From the IMG/VR virus record IMGVR_UViG_3300026519_000055, positions 1-28,451 of that record: 28,451 nucleotides of DNA. One strand, 5' to 3'. Under the pieces are notes generated by a model that had not been told where the DNA came from, searched no databases, and worked only from the letters and a program-made list of their open reading frames with translations. This document shows positions 6,474-16,305 of the stretch, one piece after another. The translations under genes and the position numbers were made by a program. The DNA comes from a virus. Numbering within the stretch: position 1 is the first letter of the stretch; each line of letters begins with the position of its first letter.

Positions 6474-6701
6474 ATGACGCATGAAGGACAACTCAAGCGA
6501 ATCAGGCAAGAATTTGCCGCGATGCACGAATTTGGCATTGTCACGGTCACAAAGGCTGAGACTAACCACCTTCTTGCGTTGGCGACTGAGGCAGTGAACA
6601 GAAGAAAGAATGCAGGTGTAAGTATTACTTACAGCAGCGCAGTTACACCTTGTGCTATCCAGTCCGACCACCTGCTCGCGGAGCTGGGTGGTAAAGGATG
6701 A
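6474..6701 (+). CDS. Hypothetical small helical protein, 75 aa
   Basis: ATG 6474 begins eight bases after the previous stop. The sequence is helical at the N-terminus (QLKRIRQEFAAMHEFG) and continues VTKAETNHLLALATEAVNRR. The stop overlaps the start of the Gp37/Gp68-family gene (ATGA), indicating coupling. The function is not recognisable. Confidence 0.5.
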   Translation: MTHEGQLKRIRQEFAAMHEFGIVTVTKAETNHLLALATEAVNRRKNAGVSITYSSAVTPCAIQSDHLLAELGGKG

Positions 6702-7741
6702 AAGTCAACCTGGACATCATCAAACCGCGAGGCGTAACGCGGACAGAAATCGAGTGGGCAGACTACTCGGCCAACCCGGTGCGTGCGGTCGATCGCAAGA
6801 CAGGCGAGGTCGGTTGGCACTGCCGGAAGGTGTCGGCGGGTTGCGCGAACTGCTACGCCGAGACGATCAACAAGCTGTTCGGCACAAAGACCGACTACAC
6901 AGCGGCGTCCGCCGAGCATGTACGGCAGGTGCTCGACGAGGGCGTGCTGCAAAAGCTCCTTCGCATGAAGCCGCGAGGCCCGTTCAAGAACGGCATGGAC
7001 CGGCCTGCGATTTTCATAGGCGACATGAACGATCTGTTCTACGGCGACGAGGCCGACCGCTTTGCCTGCGAGAGTGCGGGAGTGCTGCTCGATCCGATCC
7101 CGCTTGACTTGGTTGACAGGATTATGGCCGTGTGTGCGCTGCGGCCCGACATGAACTTCCTGTTCTTGACGAAGAGGCCCGAGCGGATGGCTGAGATGTT
7201 TGCTGCAAGCAACACTGAAACTGCATGGCGTGTAAACGAAGCTGCTTGCAGAATGTCTAGTGCAAAGATTAGACAGCCCGGGCAAGTCGGGCAGCCTGTT
7301 ATACAGTGGCCTCTCCCCAATGTCTGGCTTGGCACGAGTGTCGAGAACCAGGCGGTCACCGACGAGCGGATCCCGCATCTGTTACGATGCCAGGCTGCAG
7401 TGCGGTTCTTAAGTGTCGAGCCTCTTCTCGGGCCGATCGACTTCTCGGCGTATTTCGGTCGTCACTTCGCAGGCATGGTCGATCGTGATAAGGCGTACAA
7501 CGCGGGCATCGGCTGGGCGATCTTCGGCTGCGAAAGCCGAAGGAAGAGGGTTGGACGCAACGCAGATCATGTCAACCACCACATTGCCTCTGGTGTGCGG
7601 CAGTGCCAATCGGCTGGCATCCCCGCGTTCGTCAAACAGATCAACGCTGACTTTCTCGTAAGCCACGACCCCGCCGAGTGGCCCGAGGAGTTGCGCGTGC
7701 GGCAGATGCCGGGAGCGAGCCGAATGGATGATTCACGGTGA
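6698..7741 (+). CDS. Phage Gp37/Gp68-family (DUF5131) protein, divergent copy
   Basis: The 347-residue protein carries the family's cysteine motif C42-x6-C49-x2-C52 (SAGCANCYAE), IEWADYS near the start, FLTKRPERM, a VWLGTSVENQ segment, FLSVEPLLGPI and a C-terminal PAFVKQI. The three-cysteine motif has been likened to that of radical SAM enzymes; the chemistry is unknown. It is longer than the second copy at 15510, with an insert between the cysteine motif and the TKRPER segment, and the usual GGESG motif is replaced by FGCESRRKR. The start ATG overlaps the preceding stop. Confidence 0.85.
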   Translation: MKVNLDIIKPRGVTRTEIEWADYSANPVRAVDRKTGEVGWHCRKVSAGCANCYAETINKLFGTKTDYTAASAEHVRQVLDEGVLQKLLRMKPRGPFKNGMDRPAIFIGDMNDLFYGDEADRFACESAGVLLDPIPLDLVDRIMAVCALRPDMNFLFLTKRPERMAEMFAASNTETAWRVNEAACRMSSAKIRQPGQVGQPVIQWPLPNVWLGTSVENQAVTDERIPHLLRCQAAVRFLSVEPLLGPIDFSAYFGRHFAGMVDRDKAYNAGIGWAIFGCESRRKRVGRNADHVNHHIASGVRQCQSAGIPAFVKQINADFLVSHDPAEWPEELRVRQMPGASRMDDSR

Positions 7742-8166
7742 CTCTCGGCTACTCGCTCCACAACCCGCTAACGGTGGTGAGTCGGGAACGCCCAGACAAG
7801 ATTGCTGCGAAGTACGAAATCCCTGGCAAGATCGTCCGGCTCCTCTCGGAGCTACAAGATATAGACCCCAAAGCGGCAACGGCTTTGGTTGCCGAGCTTG
7901 CGGCAGCATCTGGCGTTACCACGGTAACCAATGGCAAGCAGTCGTCGGATGATGCTGTTGAGCAAGTCCGTAGGTTCTTTGCGCGGGAGCCTGATGTCCC
8001 GAAGACCAAGGACGAAATCGTGAGTGGGACGGGACTGTCTGATAGCGCGGTCCACACACTCATCTACCGGAGCAAACCCAAGCTGTTCGATAGCCTGCCC
8101 AACCCTGATGGGGGGCGAGAGCGGGTGTATCGCTTGCTGGTTGATGGCCAAGGCGGTCTGCCATGA
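7738..8166 (+). CDS. Hypothetical protein with helix-turn-helix-like C-terminus, 142 aa
   Basis: GTG 7738 overlaps the preceding stop (GTGA), the same junction type as at 2323, 10446 and 16676. The C-terminal half (VRRFFAREPDVPKTKDEIVSGTGLSDSAVHTLIYRSKPKLF) has the spacing of a winged helix: a DEIVSGTGLSDSAVHTLIY helix-turn-helix followed by a strand-rich RERVYRLLVDG wing. It may regulate transcription. It is the last gene before the tRNA, followed by about 120 bases with only weak hairpins. Confidence 0.6.
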   Translation: MTLGYSLHNPLTVVSRERPDKIAAKYEIPGKIVRLLSELQDIDPKAATALVAELAAASGVTTVTNGKQSSDDAVEQVRRFFAREPDVPKTKDEIVSGTGLSDSAVHTLIYRSKPKLFDSLPNPDGGRERVYRLLVDGQGGLP

Positions 8167-8287
8167 GAAGATGTCAAGGGCTGGCTCAGTAGCCCGAAAG
8201 CGCACCGCGACCCCCGGGTAGCTTTGACGGATGCCTGGGAATTCGGTGCGGCCTGGGACACCCCTTAGCGGGGGGATCAAACCAGAT

Positions 8288-8373
8288 GCTACCGTGGCGA
8301 AACTGGTAAACGCAGTCGGTTTGGGACCGACCTTCCTTCGCGGGATTTGCGGGTTCGAGTCCCGCCGGTAGCA
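8288..8373 (+). tRNA. Class II tRNA with leucine-type body and UGG (proline) anticodon
   Basis: A complete cloverleaf is visible: acceptor GCTACCG (8288-8294) with CGGTAGC (8366-8372); leucine-like D arm TGGCGAAACTGGTAAACGC; anticodon stem GTCGG/CCGAC with loop TTTGGGA (8320-8326), so anticodon TGG; a 17-nt variable arm with a TTCC/GGGA stem; T arm GCGGG/CCCGC with loop TTCGAGT; discriminator A73. No CCA is encoded. The D arm and long variable arm are typical of tRNA-Leu, while the loop TTTGGGA is that of bacterial tRNA-Pro(UGG). Leucyl-tRNA synthetase generally ignores the anticodon, so it could put leucine at CCN codons. Base pair 1-72 is G-C, not the G72 favoured by E. coli-type prolyl-tRNA synthetase. 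Confidence 0.9.
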
Positions 8374-8399
8374 ATACAGAATCACTATACGGCATATCG

Positions 8400-8421
8400 G
8401 CCCTGTTGTCAACAGGGCTTT
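8400..8421 (+). terminator. Terminator after the tRNA
   Basis: GCCCTGT (8400-8406) pairs with ACAGGGC (8412-8418) around a TGTCA loop, followed by TTT. It is 27 bases downstream of the tRNA and is the likely 3' end of its transcript. Confidence 0.65.
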
Positions 8422-8439: not shown

Positions 8440-8691
8440 ATGGTTCAAGCTGTCTTGGAGATTGGCTCGGAGTATCGCAGCCGCTTTCCCTGCGCCGACC
8501 GGATTGCGGTCTCCGACCCGCTCGCCCTCCGCCCCAAGGACGCGGCCAAAGCCCTTGGTATCGGGCAACGCAAGCTATGGGCACTCGCCCACCACGTTCA
8601 TGCGAGAGGGCAGGCCAAACGCTGCCCGTACAAAAAATATGCAAGAATTTTCGTGCAACTACTTGACAAGTGGTGGTCAATACGCCTATAG
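8440..8691 (+). CDS. AlpA/excisionase-like helix-turn-helix protein, possibly truncated
   Basis: From ATG 8440 the product is 83 aa. Residues 28-50 (ALRPKDAAKALGIGQRKLWAL) match the first helix-turn-helix of AlpA/MerR-like DNA-binding proteins (usually LSPKEAAALLGIS..TLWRL). The following part (GQAKRCPYKKYARIFVQLLDKWWS) does not show the usual wing or the R-Y-R..DL..W pattern except for the final LLDKWW, so the 3' half may be frameshifted or unusual. The end overlaps a strong promoter (8663-8692). It may be a small regulator. Confidence 0.5.
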   Translation: MVQAVLEIGSEYRSRFPCADRIAVSDPLALRPKDAAKALGIGQRKLWALAHHVHARGQAKRCPYKKYARIFVQLLDKWWSIRL

Positions 8692-8692
8692 T
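8663..8692 (+). promoter_or_regulatory. Strong sigma70-type promoter
   Basis: TTGACA (8663-8668), an 18-base spacer and TATAGT (8687-8692) form the best promoter in the window. Transcription would begin near 8699 and run to the gene at 8766. Confidence 0.75.
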
Positions 8693-14897: not shown

Positions 14898-16305
14898 CGG
14901 CAATCTGATTGCAAAGGTGACTTTGCGCCGTGTGTTTCTTGAACGATATCACAGCGACGGTGGCGCCATGGTCTTCGATGCGTTTCGAGGAAACGGTTGT
15001 ATTTGGGACAAGATTCGAGCGTCTACACCCATTAAGTCGCATTGGGGAGTTGATACACGAAAGTTCCCGGGCGTTCTACGAGTCGACAGCTTACGCATTA
15101 TTAAGCAGCCTATGGTTGAAAATGTATACGACCTTGACGCTTATGGATCGCCGTGGGCGCATTGGCTAGGTCTACTTGGTTCGCTGAACCACTCTGCTAC
15201 GGTGTTTTTGACCATCGGCAAAAAGAACACTACAGCCAGGCCACTTACAGATGTAGAACTCGACTTGCTCGGAATTGGCAAGATGTGTTCACCGTGCCCG
15301 ATGATTTGTTGTGGACTTGTTCGTATGTCTGAGGCTGCTATGATTTGTGCCGCGGGAGAATATGGATTTACGATCGACTCTTGGGGGAGTTCAGAAACAA
15401 ATACAGCTCGATACCTTGCGGTCCGGCTGGAGAAGACCTATAATGACCAAGCCCGGGATTGCGCCCCGGGCTTGGAAGACACCCACCCGTCTGGAAAGGA
15501 GACGAATGAATGTCCGAATCAACGATTATTGCGTGGACAAACCACACTTTCAACCTCGCCTGGGGATGCGTCAAGGTTTCGCCAGGGTGCAAAAACTGCT
15601 ATGCCGACACGCTTTCGTCAAGGTATGGCTACGATGTATGGGGGCCGAGAAAGCCGCGTAGAGTTTTCGGCGAAAAGTATTGGAACAACCCGCTCAAGTG
15701 GAACCAGGAGGCCGAACTGGCAGGAGAACGGCGTCGGGTGTTCACCTCGTCGATGTGCGACTGCTTTGAAGACCACCCGACAATCGACGCGGAGAGGGAA
15801 AAGCTCTGGCCTCTCATTCGCAAGACGCCGTGGTTGGATTGGCAGGTTCTTACGAAACGGCCAGAAAGATACGCCGAATGCCTGCCCGATGATTGGGGCG
15901 AGGGCTACGCAAATGTCTGGCTCGGAACTTCGATTGAAAACGAGGACTACATATGGCGAGCGGACGAACTTAGAAAAATCCCCGCAGTGGTCCGCTTTAT
16001 CTCGTACGAGCCCGCCCTTGGTCCGCTCGATGCTCTCGATCTTGAAGGGCTGGACTGGATTCTTTACGGCGGCGAGAGCGGGCCGGGCTTCCGACCTCAC
16101 AATGCCGATTGGGCGCGGTCGATGCGTGATAGGTGTGGTTCACCACCCGCTAATTCTCGCCGATGGCCTGTGTTCTTTTACAAGCAATCTTCTGACATTC
16201 GTACGGAGATGGGGATTGAACTTGACGGCGAAATTGTGCGAAACTACCCCACCCCACTTACCGTGTCAGCCGGTTTGTTTGGCTAGAACTGTGGTGGCAC
16301 CATGA
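14869..16305 (+). CDS. SAM-dependent methyltransferase-like protein; frame reads through the next gene
   Basis: ATG 14869 overlaps the ParB-like gene by 29 bases. The first ~190 residues look like a class I methyltransferase: MVFDAFRGNGCIWD (motif I, SAM loop), HWGVDTRKF, then VYDLDAYGSPWAHWL (acidic DAYG motif) and FLTIGKK. The coherent part ends near VRLEKTY (about 15440). The frame then stays open for a further 290 codons, completely overlapping the Gp37/Gp68-family gene at 15510-16286 in another frame, with low-complexity, arginine-rich sequence. A stop was probably lost by a point change or small frameshift (stops in another frame lie at 15441 and 15444), or the real protein ends early. 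Paired with the ParB-like gene, it may modify DNA. Confidence 0.55.
   Translation: MSLKQHKTDNGNLIAKVTLRRVFLERYHSDGGAMVFDAFRGNGCIWDKIRASTPIKSHWGVDTRKFPGVLRVDSLRIIKQPMVENVYDLDAYGSPWAHWLGLLGSLNHSATVFLTIGKKNTTARPLTDVELDLLGIGKMCSPCPMICCGLVRMSEAAMICAAGEYGFTIDSWGSSETNTARYLAVRLEKTYNDQARDCAPGLEDTHPSGKETNECPNQRLLRGQTTLSTSPGDASRFRQGAKTAMPTRFRQGMATMYGGRESRVEFSAKSIGTTRSSGTRRPNWQENGVGCSPRRCATALKTTRQSTRRGKSSGLSFARRRGWIGRFLRNGQKDTPNACPMIGARATQMSGSELRLKTRTTYGERTNLEKSPQWSALSRTSPPLVRSMLSILKGWTGFFTAARAGRASDLTMPIGRGRCVIGVVHHPLILADGLCSFTSNLLTFVRRWGLNLTAKLCETTPPHLPCQPVCLARTVVAP
15416..15475 (+). promoter_or_regulatory. Promoter with perfect TATAAT followed by an 11-bp hairpin
   Basis: TTGCGG (15416-15421), a 17-base spacer and TATAAT (15439-15444). 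Directly after it, 15447-15457 pairs perfectly with 15465-15475 around a 7-base loop (15458-15464). There is no T-run, so this is a leader hairpin rather than a terminator. It would drive the gene at 15510. Confidence 0.6.
15510..16286 (+). CDS. Phage Gp37/Gp68-family (DUF5131) protein
   Basis: ATG 15510 has AAAGGAG eight bases upstream. The 258-residue product is a typical family member: IIAWTNHTFNLAWGC, cysteines C20-x6-C27-x2-C30 (VSPGCKNCYAD), WGPRKPRRVF, VFTSSMCDCFED, VLTKRPERY, VWLGTSIENEDY, FISYEPALGPL, YGGESGPGFRPH and FYKQSS near the end. It shares the cysteine spacing with the divergent copy at 6698. The family is suspected to be radical-SAM-like, acting on an unknown substrate. Its own promoter and leader suggest separate control. 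Confidence 0.9.
   Translation: MSESTIIAWTNHTFNLAWGCVKVSPGCKNCYADTLSSRYGYDVWGPRKPRRVFGEKYWNNPLKWNQEAELAGERRRVFTSSMCDCFEDHPTIDAEREKLWPLIRKTPWLDWQVLTKRPERYAECLPDDWGEGYANVWLGTSIENEDYIWRADELRKIPAVVRFISYEPALGPLDALDLEGLDWILYGGESGPGFRPHNADWARSMRDRCGSPPANSRRWPVFFYKQSSDIRTEMGIELDGEIVRNYPTPLTVSAGLFG

Follow-up and report, generated by a model that had tools for sequence, protein, structure and literature searches.

The window analysed here is an entire IMG/VR virus record of 28,451 bp, which encodes replication proteins (an O-like initiator, a DnaC-like loader, and RusA), TerL, a Mu-F-domain portal, and an HK97-type capsid. This one phage contains two DUF5131 (PHROG 2045) genes, at 6698-7741 and 15510-16286. 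No near relatives were found among the INPHARED phages, and searching Planctomycetota with the window TerL returned distant matches only. One contig encoding a TerL relative (68%), L013, bears at 4161-4233 a degenerate tRNA-Ala(UGC)-like gene, apparently in the same slot as the window tRNA and also behind a hairpin.

ARAGORN detects a single tRNA in the window, at 8287-8374 on the plus strand, which it names Pro(TGG) from the anticodon, and Rfam model RF00005 matches over its full length at 8288-8373 (57.1 bits, E 5e-10). This gene is a class II tRNA that combines a leucine scaffold with the anticodon UGG, corresponding to the proline codons CCN. All stems are intact, including the acceptor stem GCTACCG/CGGTAGC with its G1:C72 pair. 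The D arm is of the leucine type, U8, A14, A15, G18 G19, and A20a are present, the long variable arm (8332-8348) comprises 17 nt, CTTCCTTCGCGGGATTT, and the T arm, GCGGG TTCGAGT CCCGC, is accompanied by the discriminator A73; CCA is not encoded. The structure parse places the anticodon (positions 34-36) at 8322-8324, within the loop TTTGGGA (8320-8326), followed by G37. No chance match to the structure pattern was obtained in 100 shuffles of the window.

We compared the tRNA with two covariance models, one (R1) trained on eight tRNA-Leu from two planctomycete genomes, the other (R2) on ten tRNA-Pro from genomes bearing the related cassettes described below. The window tRNA scores 62.7 bits with the Leu model and 32.4 bits with the Pro model. 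True leucine tRNAs score 102 and 91 bits with the Leu model versus 39 and 31 with the Pro model, and true proline tRNAs 94-103 bits with the Pro model versus 40-45 with the Leu model, values that serve as yardsticks only, because those tRNAs sat in the training sets. The complete cloverleaf with a leucine body and the UGG anticodon, both described in the initial annotation, are thus confirmed, and the isotype models rank leucine above proline.

The identity elements point in the same direction. All determinants of the bacterial leucine set (PMC9976931) are present, namely A73, A20a, the large variable arm, and the tertiary bases between the D and T loops (U8:A14, G18, and G19). From the bacterial proline set (PMC9976931), the tRNA has G35, G36, G37, A73, and G49, while G72, G15:C48, and U17a are absent, the window tRNA having C72, A15:U48, and no U17a; its 17-nt arm also differs from the class I short variable loop of tRNA-Pro. 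The body being that of leucine, this is not a proline body with a foreign anticodon, as is typical of the tRNAProX family. LeuRS and SerRS are among the few synthetases that ignore the anticodon (PMC9976931). With its leucine body and proline anticodon, the window tRNA should be charged by LeuRS, as the initial annotation had also suggested. Dual charging by LeuRS and ProRS is possible, given the proline determinants G35-G36-G37, A73, and G49.

Directly upstream of the tRNA lies a small ORF of 142 aa (7738-8166, plus strand). It has no convincing family in Pfam or PHROG, and its predicted structure is of low confidence (mean pLDDT 46) and unusable. By inspection, it appears to have a helical N-terminus and an HTH-like (winged-helix) C-terminus, the latter resembling an ORF in the same position at an IS1595-linked locus, L027 (32% over 37 aa, E 9e-5). 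A small GC hairpin (8261-8274, plus strand) just upstream of the tRNA matches in position the hairpin of other cassettes, and is no stronger than in shuffled sequence (z 0.0). Downstream, a hairpin at 8400-8418 (plus strand) is followed by TTT and may be a weak terminator. Of the proper terminator initially described, the strong hairpin stands, but only TTT follows it and a plus-strand terminator scan gives it no score. A sigma-70-like promoter match (11/12 bases) occurs downstream of the tRNA at 8384-8412 on the minus strand, directed back through the tRNA, and a comparable match is found on the plus strand at 8663-8692. The window contains no match to, or remnant of, an IS1595 transposase and no terminal inverted repeat, and Pfam and PHROG scans of ten window proteins revealed no aminoacyl-tRNA synthetase.

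Related tRNAs in bacterial genomes and viruses

A degenerate pattern combining the Leu D arm, the long variable arm, and any NGG anticodon matched 21 genome contigs and a further two from viruses, and 16 of the genome contigs have well-formed leucine-scaffold tRNAs of the cassette type. We set aside four genome hits in which ARAGORN finds no tRNA (L020, L029, L037, and L039) and a Ramlibacter hit (L034) resembling a normal chromosomal Leu(GAG) gene in which a single anticodon base has changed. The anticodon is UGG in 16/16 genome cassettes and in the two viral contigs, with base 34 left free in the pattern. These counts are lower bounds, because the pattern sees a single D-loop spacing; the genome records are mostly metagenome bins. 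Their titles name Phycisphaerae or Phycisphaeraceae, Dehalococcoidia, SAR202 and Chloroflexi, Armatimonadetes, Acidobacteriaceae, Verrucomicrobiia and Spartobacteria, Acetobacteraceae, Betaproteobacteria, and Deltaproteobacteria.

The tRNAs nearest to that of the window come from Phycisphaeraceae (L036 and L025, 84% over stems and arms), followed by L027 and L021, compared to at most 71% for the ordinary leucine tRNAs examined. Since these closest relatives already have UGG, the single A-to-G step from a UAG anticodon that had been suggested is not needed inside the phage. The Leu model also outscores the Pro model in the eight other UGG cassettes that were scored, as well as in additional copies linked to transposons. 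The G1:C72 pair is kept in the window and in 14 other UGG cassettes, whereas 4/19 (L018, L022, L026/L076, and L038) have C1:G72, which fits bacterial ProRS. At least 8 of the 16 cassette genomes have a canonical class I tRNA-Pro(UGG), and the cassette tRNA is therefore an addition. In two Phycisphaeraceae bins (L121:1414-8629 and L052/L066), we also observe arrays of 14 to 30 tRNA genes, which include unusual leucine tRNAs of about 75 nt.

The cassettes share a common order of small ORF, hairpin, and tRNA, the stop codon of the ORF lying 30-145 nt upstream of the tRNA in most of them. The upstream ORFs are very divergent and of two types. The first combines an N-terminus of helical or coiled-coil character with a winged-helix-like C-terminus, for which L032 gives a HARE-HTH match (E 2e-5) slightly short of the Pfam cut-off; the second, in L024, L025, and L036, is an ImmA/IrrE-type peptidase. 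No convincing upstream ORF is found in L035, L038, and L040. The upstream hairpins have a mean z of -3.2 (60 nt), compared to -0.8 for 38 ordinary tRNAs (49 nt); with both taken at 49 nt, the values are -2.5 and -0.8 (p 0.003). The window shares with these cassettes the leucine scaffold with a non-leucine anticodon and the small ORF directly upstream, but no transposase or terminal inverted repeats surround its tRNA.

Viral contigs were also scanned for leucine scaffolds whose anticodon is not one of leucine (base 35 other than A), which yielded at least 69 tRNAs that fold well. Among the matches listed, 13/14 copies with anticodon GTT have U1:A72 and G73, the three GTG copies all have C73, and the acceptor end fits the anticodon in half of the Ser and Gln copies. 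Because these acceptor ends fit the new anticodon, full identity switches are common in phages. Leucine-type class II tRNA-Asn(GUU), tRNA-Gln(UUG), and tRNA-His(GUG) with a new acceptor identity occur at L189, L205, L208, L227, L228, L238, L245, L252, L265, L280, L281, and other phage loci. A73 and G1:C72 are mostly kept, among the matches listed, in copies with UGG, UUA, UGC, UCC, UUC, or UGA, and several of these unswitched copies lie downstream of an HTH-like ORF or close to an IS1595 transposase. By its sequence, the window tRNA, with A73 and G1:C72 kept, is a member of this unswitched group. Leucine-scaffold UUA tRNAs, which would read the stop codon UAA, are found at L192, L210, L254, L264, L270, L273, L287, and L323, the last of which adjoins an IS1595 transposase.

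Linkage to IS1595 transposons

At 11/16 genome loci, and likewise in viral contig L019, the tRNA has an IS1595-family transposase, or what remains of one, no more than about 3 kb away. By comparison, none of 30 ordinary tRNA loci, taken with 1.5-kb flanks, is near IS1595 (p 3e-7 against the 3-kb cassette count). In 13 of the 14 cassette genomes searched, there are one to seven IS1595 matches per genome; in the phylum of G001, only 15 of 119 sampled genomes have any match.

Brute-force screening for pairs of inverted ends bordered by direct repeats identified ten complete IS1595 transposons of 1.9-3.0 kb (L033, L035, L038, L040, L313, L336, L338, L373, L375, and L378), each enclosing such a class II tRNA together with the transposase. 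Their inverted repeats match at 13-16 of 16 positions, with a consensus near CGGAAGTATGTACTTGACGC, and their 8-bp target duplications are perfect (8/8). An element score of 22 or more is reached by 9/10 of these elements (L375 scores 21), compared to 0/60 mismatched flank pairs. We show that, at the level of sequence, the tRNA form and its IS1595 linkage extend across several bacterial phyla. The initial annotation had missed this linkage, as well as the order of ORF, hairpin, and tRNA. No description of a tRNA passenger of IS1595 elements was found in the open-access literature searched, which is weak evidence of novelty.

An independent search used only the transposase as its seed, and its best matches among 396 sampled genomes also carry class II tRNAs, with the anticodon UGG in G007 and G568, and UGC in G395 and G693, whereas G411 has a serine-type body with G73 and the anticodon UGG. 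The transposon-borne UGC copies have C3:G70 in place of the alanine determinant G3:U70 that AlaRS requires, so this enzyme should not charge them. Since LeuRS and SerRS ignore the anticodon, leucine and serine scaffolds are what missense would require.

Other genes of interest lie near transposases of this family. In a SAR202 genome contig (L028:4596-4720), a second tRNA-like element is located beside the same IS1595 transposase as the first, and its anticodon region, CCTTAGGTTCGCACC, has an exact complement 74 nt downstream. A verrucomicrobial genome has a tRNA-Arg(UCU)-like gene with G1:U72 in the neighbourhood of an IS1595 transposase (L083:2606-2679), and near another such transposase a class II tRNA that combines the anticodon UAU with G73 stands beside a tRNA-Ala(UGC)-like gene (L387:3005-3190). 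In plasmids L325 and L326, the IS1595 transposase gene is followed by a hypothetical gene and then by a PIN or VapC-type toxin gene.

Codon use and alternative explanations

A recoding of the phage's own proline codons, one of the roles initially put forward, is not supported by alignment: out of 39 CCA sites of the window phage aligned to relatives, 25 have a proline majority in the relatives and none a leucine majority. We also rejected codon supply as a role, because CCA accounts for 83 of the 346 proline codons of the phage and no fewer than half of the relatives' hosts possess a tRNA-Pro(UGG) themselves, which leaves no clear need for it. In IS1595 elements bearing UGG tRNAs, a CCA codon tends to occur near the C-terminus of the transposase (L019, L023, L027, L028, L035, L038, L312, L313, L336, and L373), where more distant transposases have leucine. 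The count, made by hand and tested post hoc, is 11/16 versus 2/15 (p 0.003). At this column, Ser, Gln, Tyr, or Val is found in closer transposase relatives that lack a UGG tRNA, and other IS1595 elements conserve TCG equally at the transposase end. Given these observations and the post hoc nature of the test, recoding of the transposase is regarded as no more than a lead.

The chief rival to missense is that the leucine scaffold was captured by mobile elements and remoulded into a proline tRNA, now charged by ProRS and merely helping to decode CCN. The presence of G35, G36, G37, A73, and G49 in the window tRNA is consistent with this, as is the identity switching seen in phages for leucine scaffolds that bear anticodons of Asn, His, or, in some cases, Gln or Ser, and the possibility stays alive because of the four copies with C1:G72 (L018, L022, L026/L076, and L038). 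Nevertheless, the window and 14 other UGG cassettes retain G1:C72, A15:U48 replaces G15:C48, and U17a is lacking, all of which argue against a proline identity. The UGC copies without G3:U70, the serine-scaffold UGG copy with G73 rather than the A73 of proline, and the canonical tRNA-Pro(UGG) already owned by at least half of the hosts do not fit this explanation either, and we consider it unlikely, with perhaps one chance in five of being right. If instead the tRNA were a decoy or a nuclease-resistant form shielding the phage or transposon from host anticodon nucleases, the altered anticodon loops of phage tRNAs, which have been proposed to evade nucleases (PMC10264068), would provide a precedent, and the PIN or VapC genes adjoining some plasmid IS1595 elements would make sense. 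Such a nuclease model, however, predicts functional replacement of the cleaved isoacceptors and not a mismatch between body and anticodon, and the scaffold is constant while the anticodons vary (UGG, UGC, UUA, UCC, UUC, and UGA), which makes a decoy improbable.

The conserved order of ORF, hairpin, and tRNA, with stop codons 30-145 nt upstream in most cassettes, might also indicate that the tRNA body is a processing or stability element for the upstream mRNA, its decoding being unimportant. Any tRNA would do for this purpose, and the strict U34, the non-leucine anticodon, and the intact decoding loop would be left unexplained; we judge this explanation at least as improbable as the decoy. The least probable of all, with hardly any weight, is the relic that the initial annotation had considered, in which the phage acquired a host tRNA-Leu(UAG) that then mutated without consequence. 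A UAG anticodon is indeed one step away and isolated changes of this kind exist, as in Ramlibacter L034, but the stems are all intact, and the relic is disfavoured because the same form is conserved across several phyla and embedded in intact transposons.

Proposed mechanism and comparison with known systems

We conclude that the window gene is probably a phage-borne copy of a mobile missense-tRNA cassette. The parts of this reading differ in strength. That the cassette is mobile is very likely, and leucylation of its tRNA is likely, while a toxin-like role, suggested by analogy, is tentative. The cassette consists of a small ORF, a hairpin, and a class II tRNA whose anticodon has been altered away from leucine, usually to UGG. 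Its RNA would be produced by read-through from the upstream gene, through the hairpin, and then trimmed, and the host would add the CCA. LeuRS, which does not read the anticodon, would charge the tRNA with leucine, and EF-Tu would bring the leucyl-tRNA to CCN codons in competition with the host tRNA-Pro(UGG), so that a fraction of proline residues would be replaced by leucine. Mobile elements would most likely use it as a conditional module, toxin-like or stress-related, curbed by the linked regulatory gene. It is conceivable, and no more than a tentative proposal, that the tRNA, charged with leucine or serine and having a foreign anticodon, is the effector of a toxin- or defence-like module that poisons the proteome by missense, linked to a DNA-binding or ImmA/IrrE regulator and spread by IS1595 elements and phages.

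The best-known dedicated bacterial missense tRNAs form one family, which has a proline body. If our reading is true, the cassettes would constitute a second missense-tRNA family, built on scaffolds with anticodon-blind synthetases and borne by transposons and phages across phyla, and deliberate mistranslation would be a mobile trait. The cassette is a directly testable system, comprising one small RNA. Annotation based on the anticodon, which here gives 'tRNA-Pro', conceals such genes.

Several known systems share features with the cassette. Nuclease-evading phage tRNAs also have an altered anticodon loop, but they are treated as same-identity replacements for cleaved host tRNAs (PMC10264068). 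IS1595-family elements have a PF12762 transposase, terminal inverted repeats, and 8-bp target duplications, as in the relatives of the window cassette, whereas in the window copy the transposon itself is missing. The nev-tRNAs of nematodes resemble the cassette tRNA in their class II body, long variable arm, and non-leucine anticodon (Gly CCC or Ile UAU), and are charged with leucine in vitro (PMC4300185). They differ in being eukaryotic, and mistranslation is undetectable in worms, showing that leucine-charged tRNAs with foreign anticodons can persist and be conserved without measurable missense (PMC4300185). Body and anticodon likewise disagree in the bacterial tRNAProX family (tRNAProA, tRNAProN, and tRNAProT), known from Streptomyces and its relatives, whose members cause mistranslation and prove toxic upon expression in E. 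coli (PMC10365949). By analogy with this family, a general error-making role, toxin-like or stress-linked, is our best remaining guess for the cassette. Nevertheless, tRNAProX pairs a proline body with an anticodon for Ala, Asn, or Thr and has a linked ProRSx (PMC10365949), whereas the cassette has a leucine (or serine) class II body, mostly a Pro or Ala anticodon, and a linkage to IS1595 transposons and phages.
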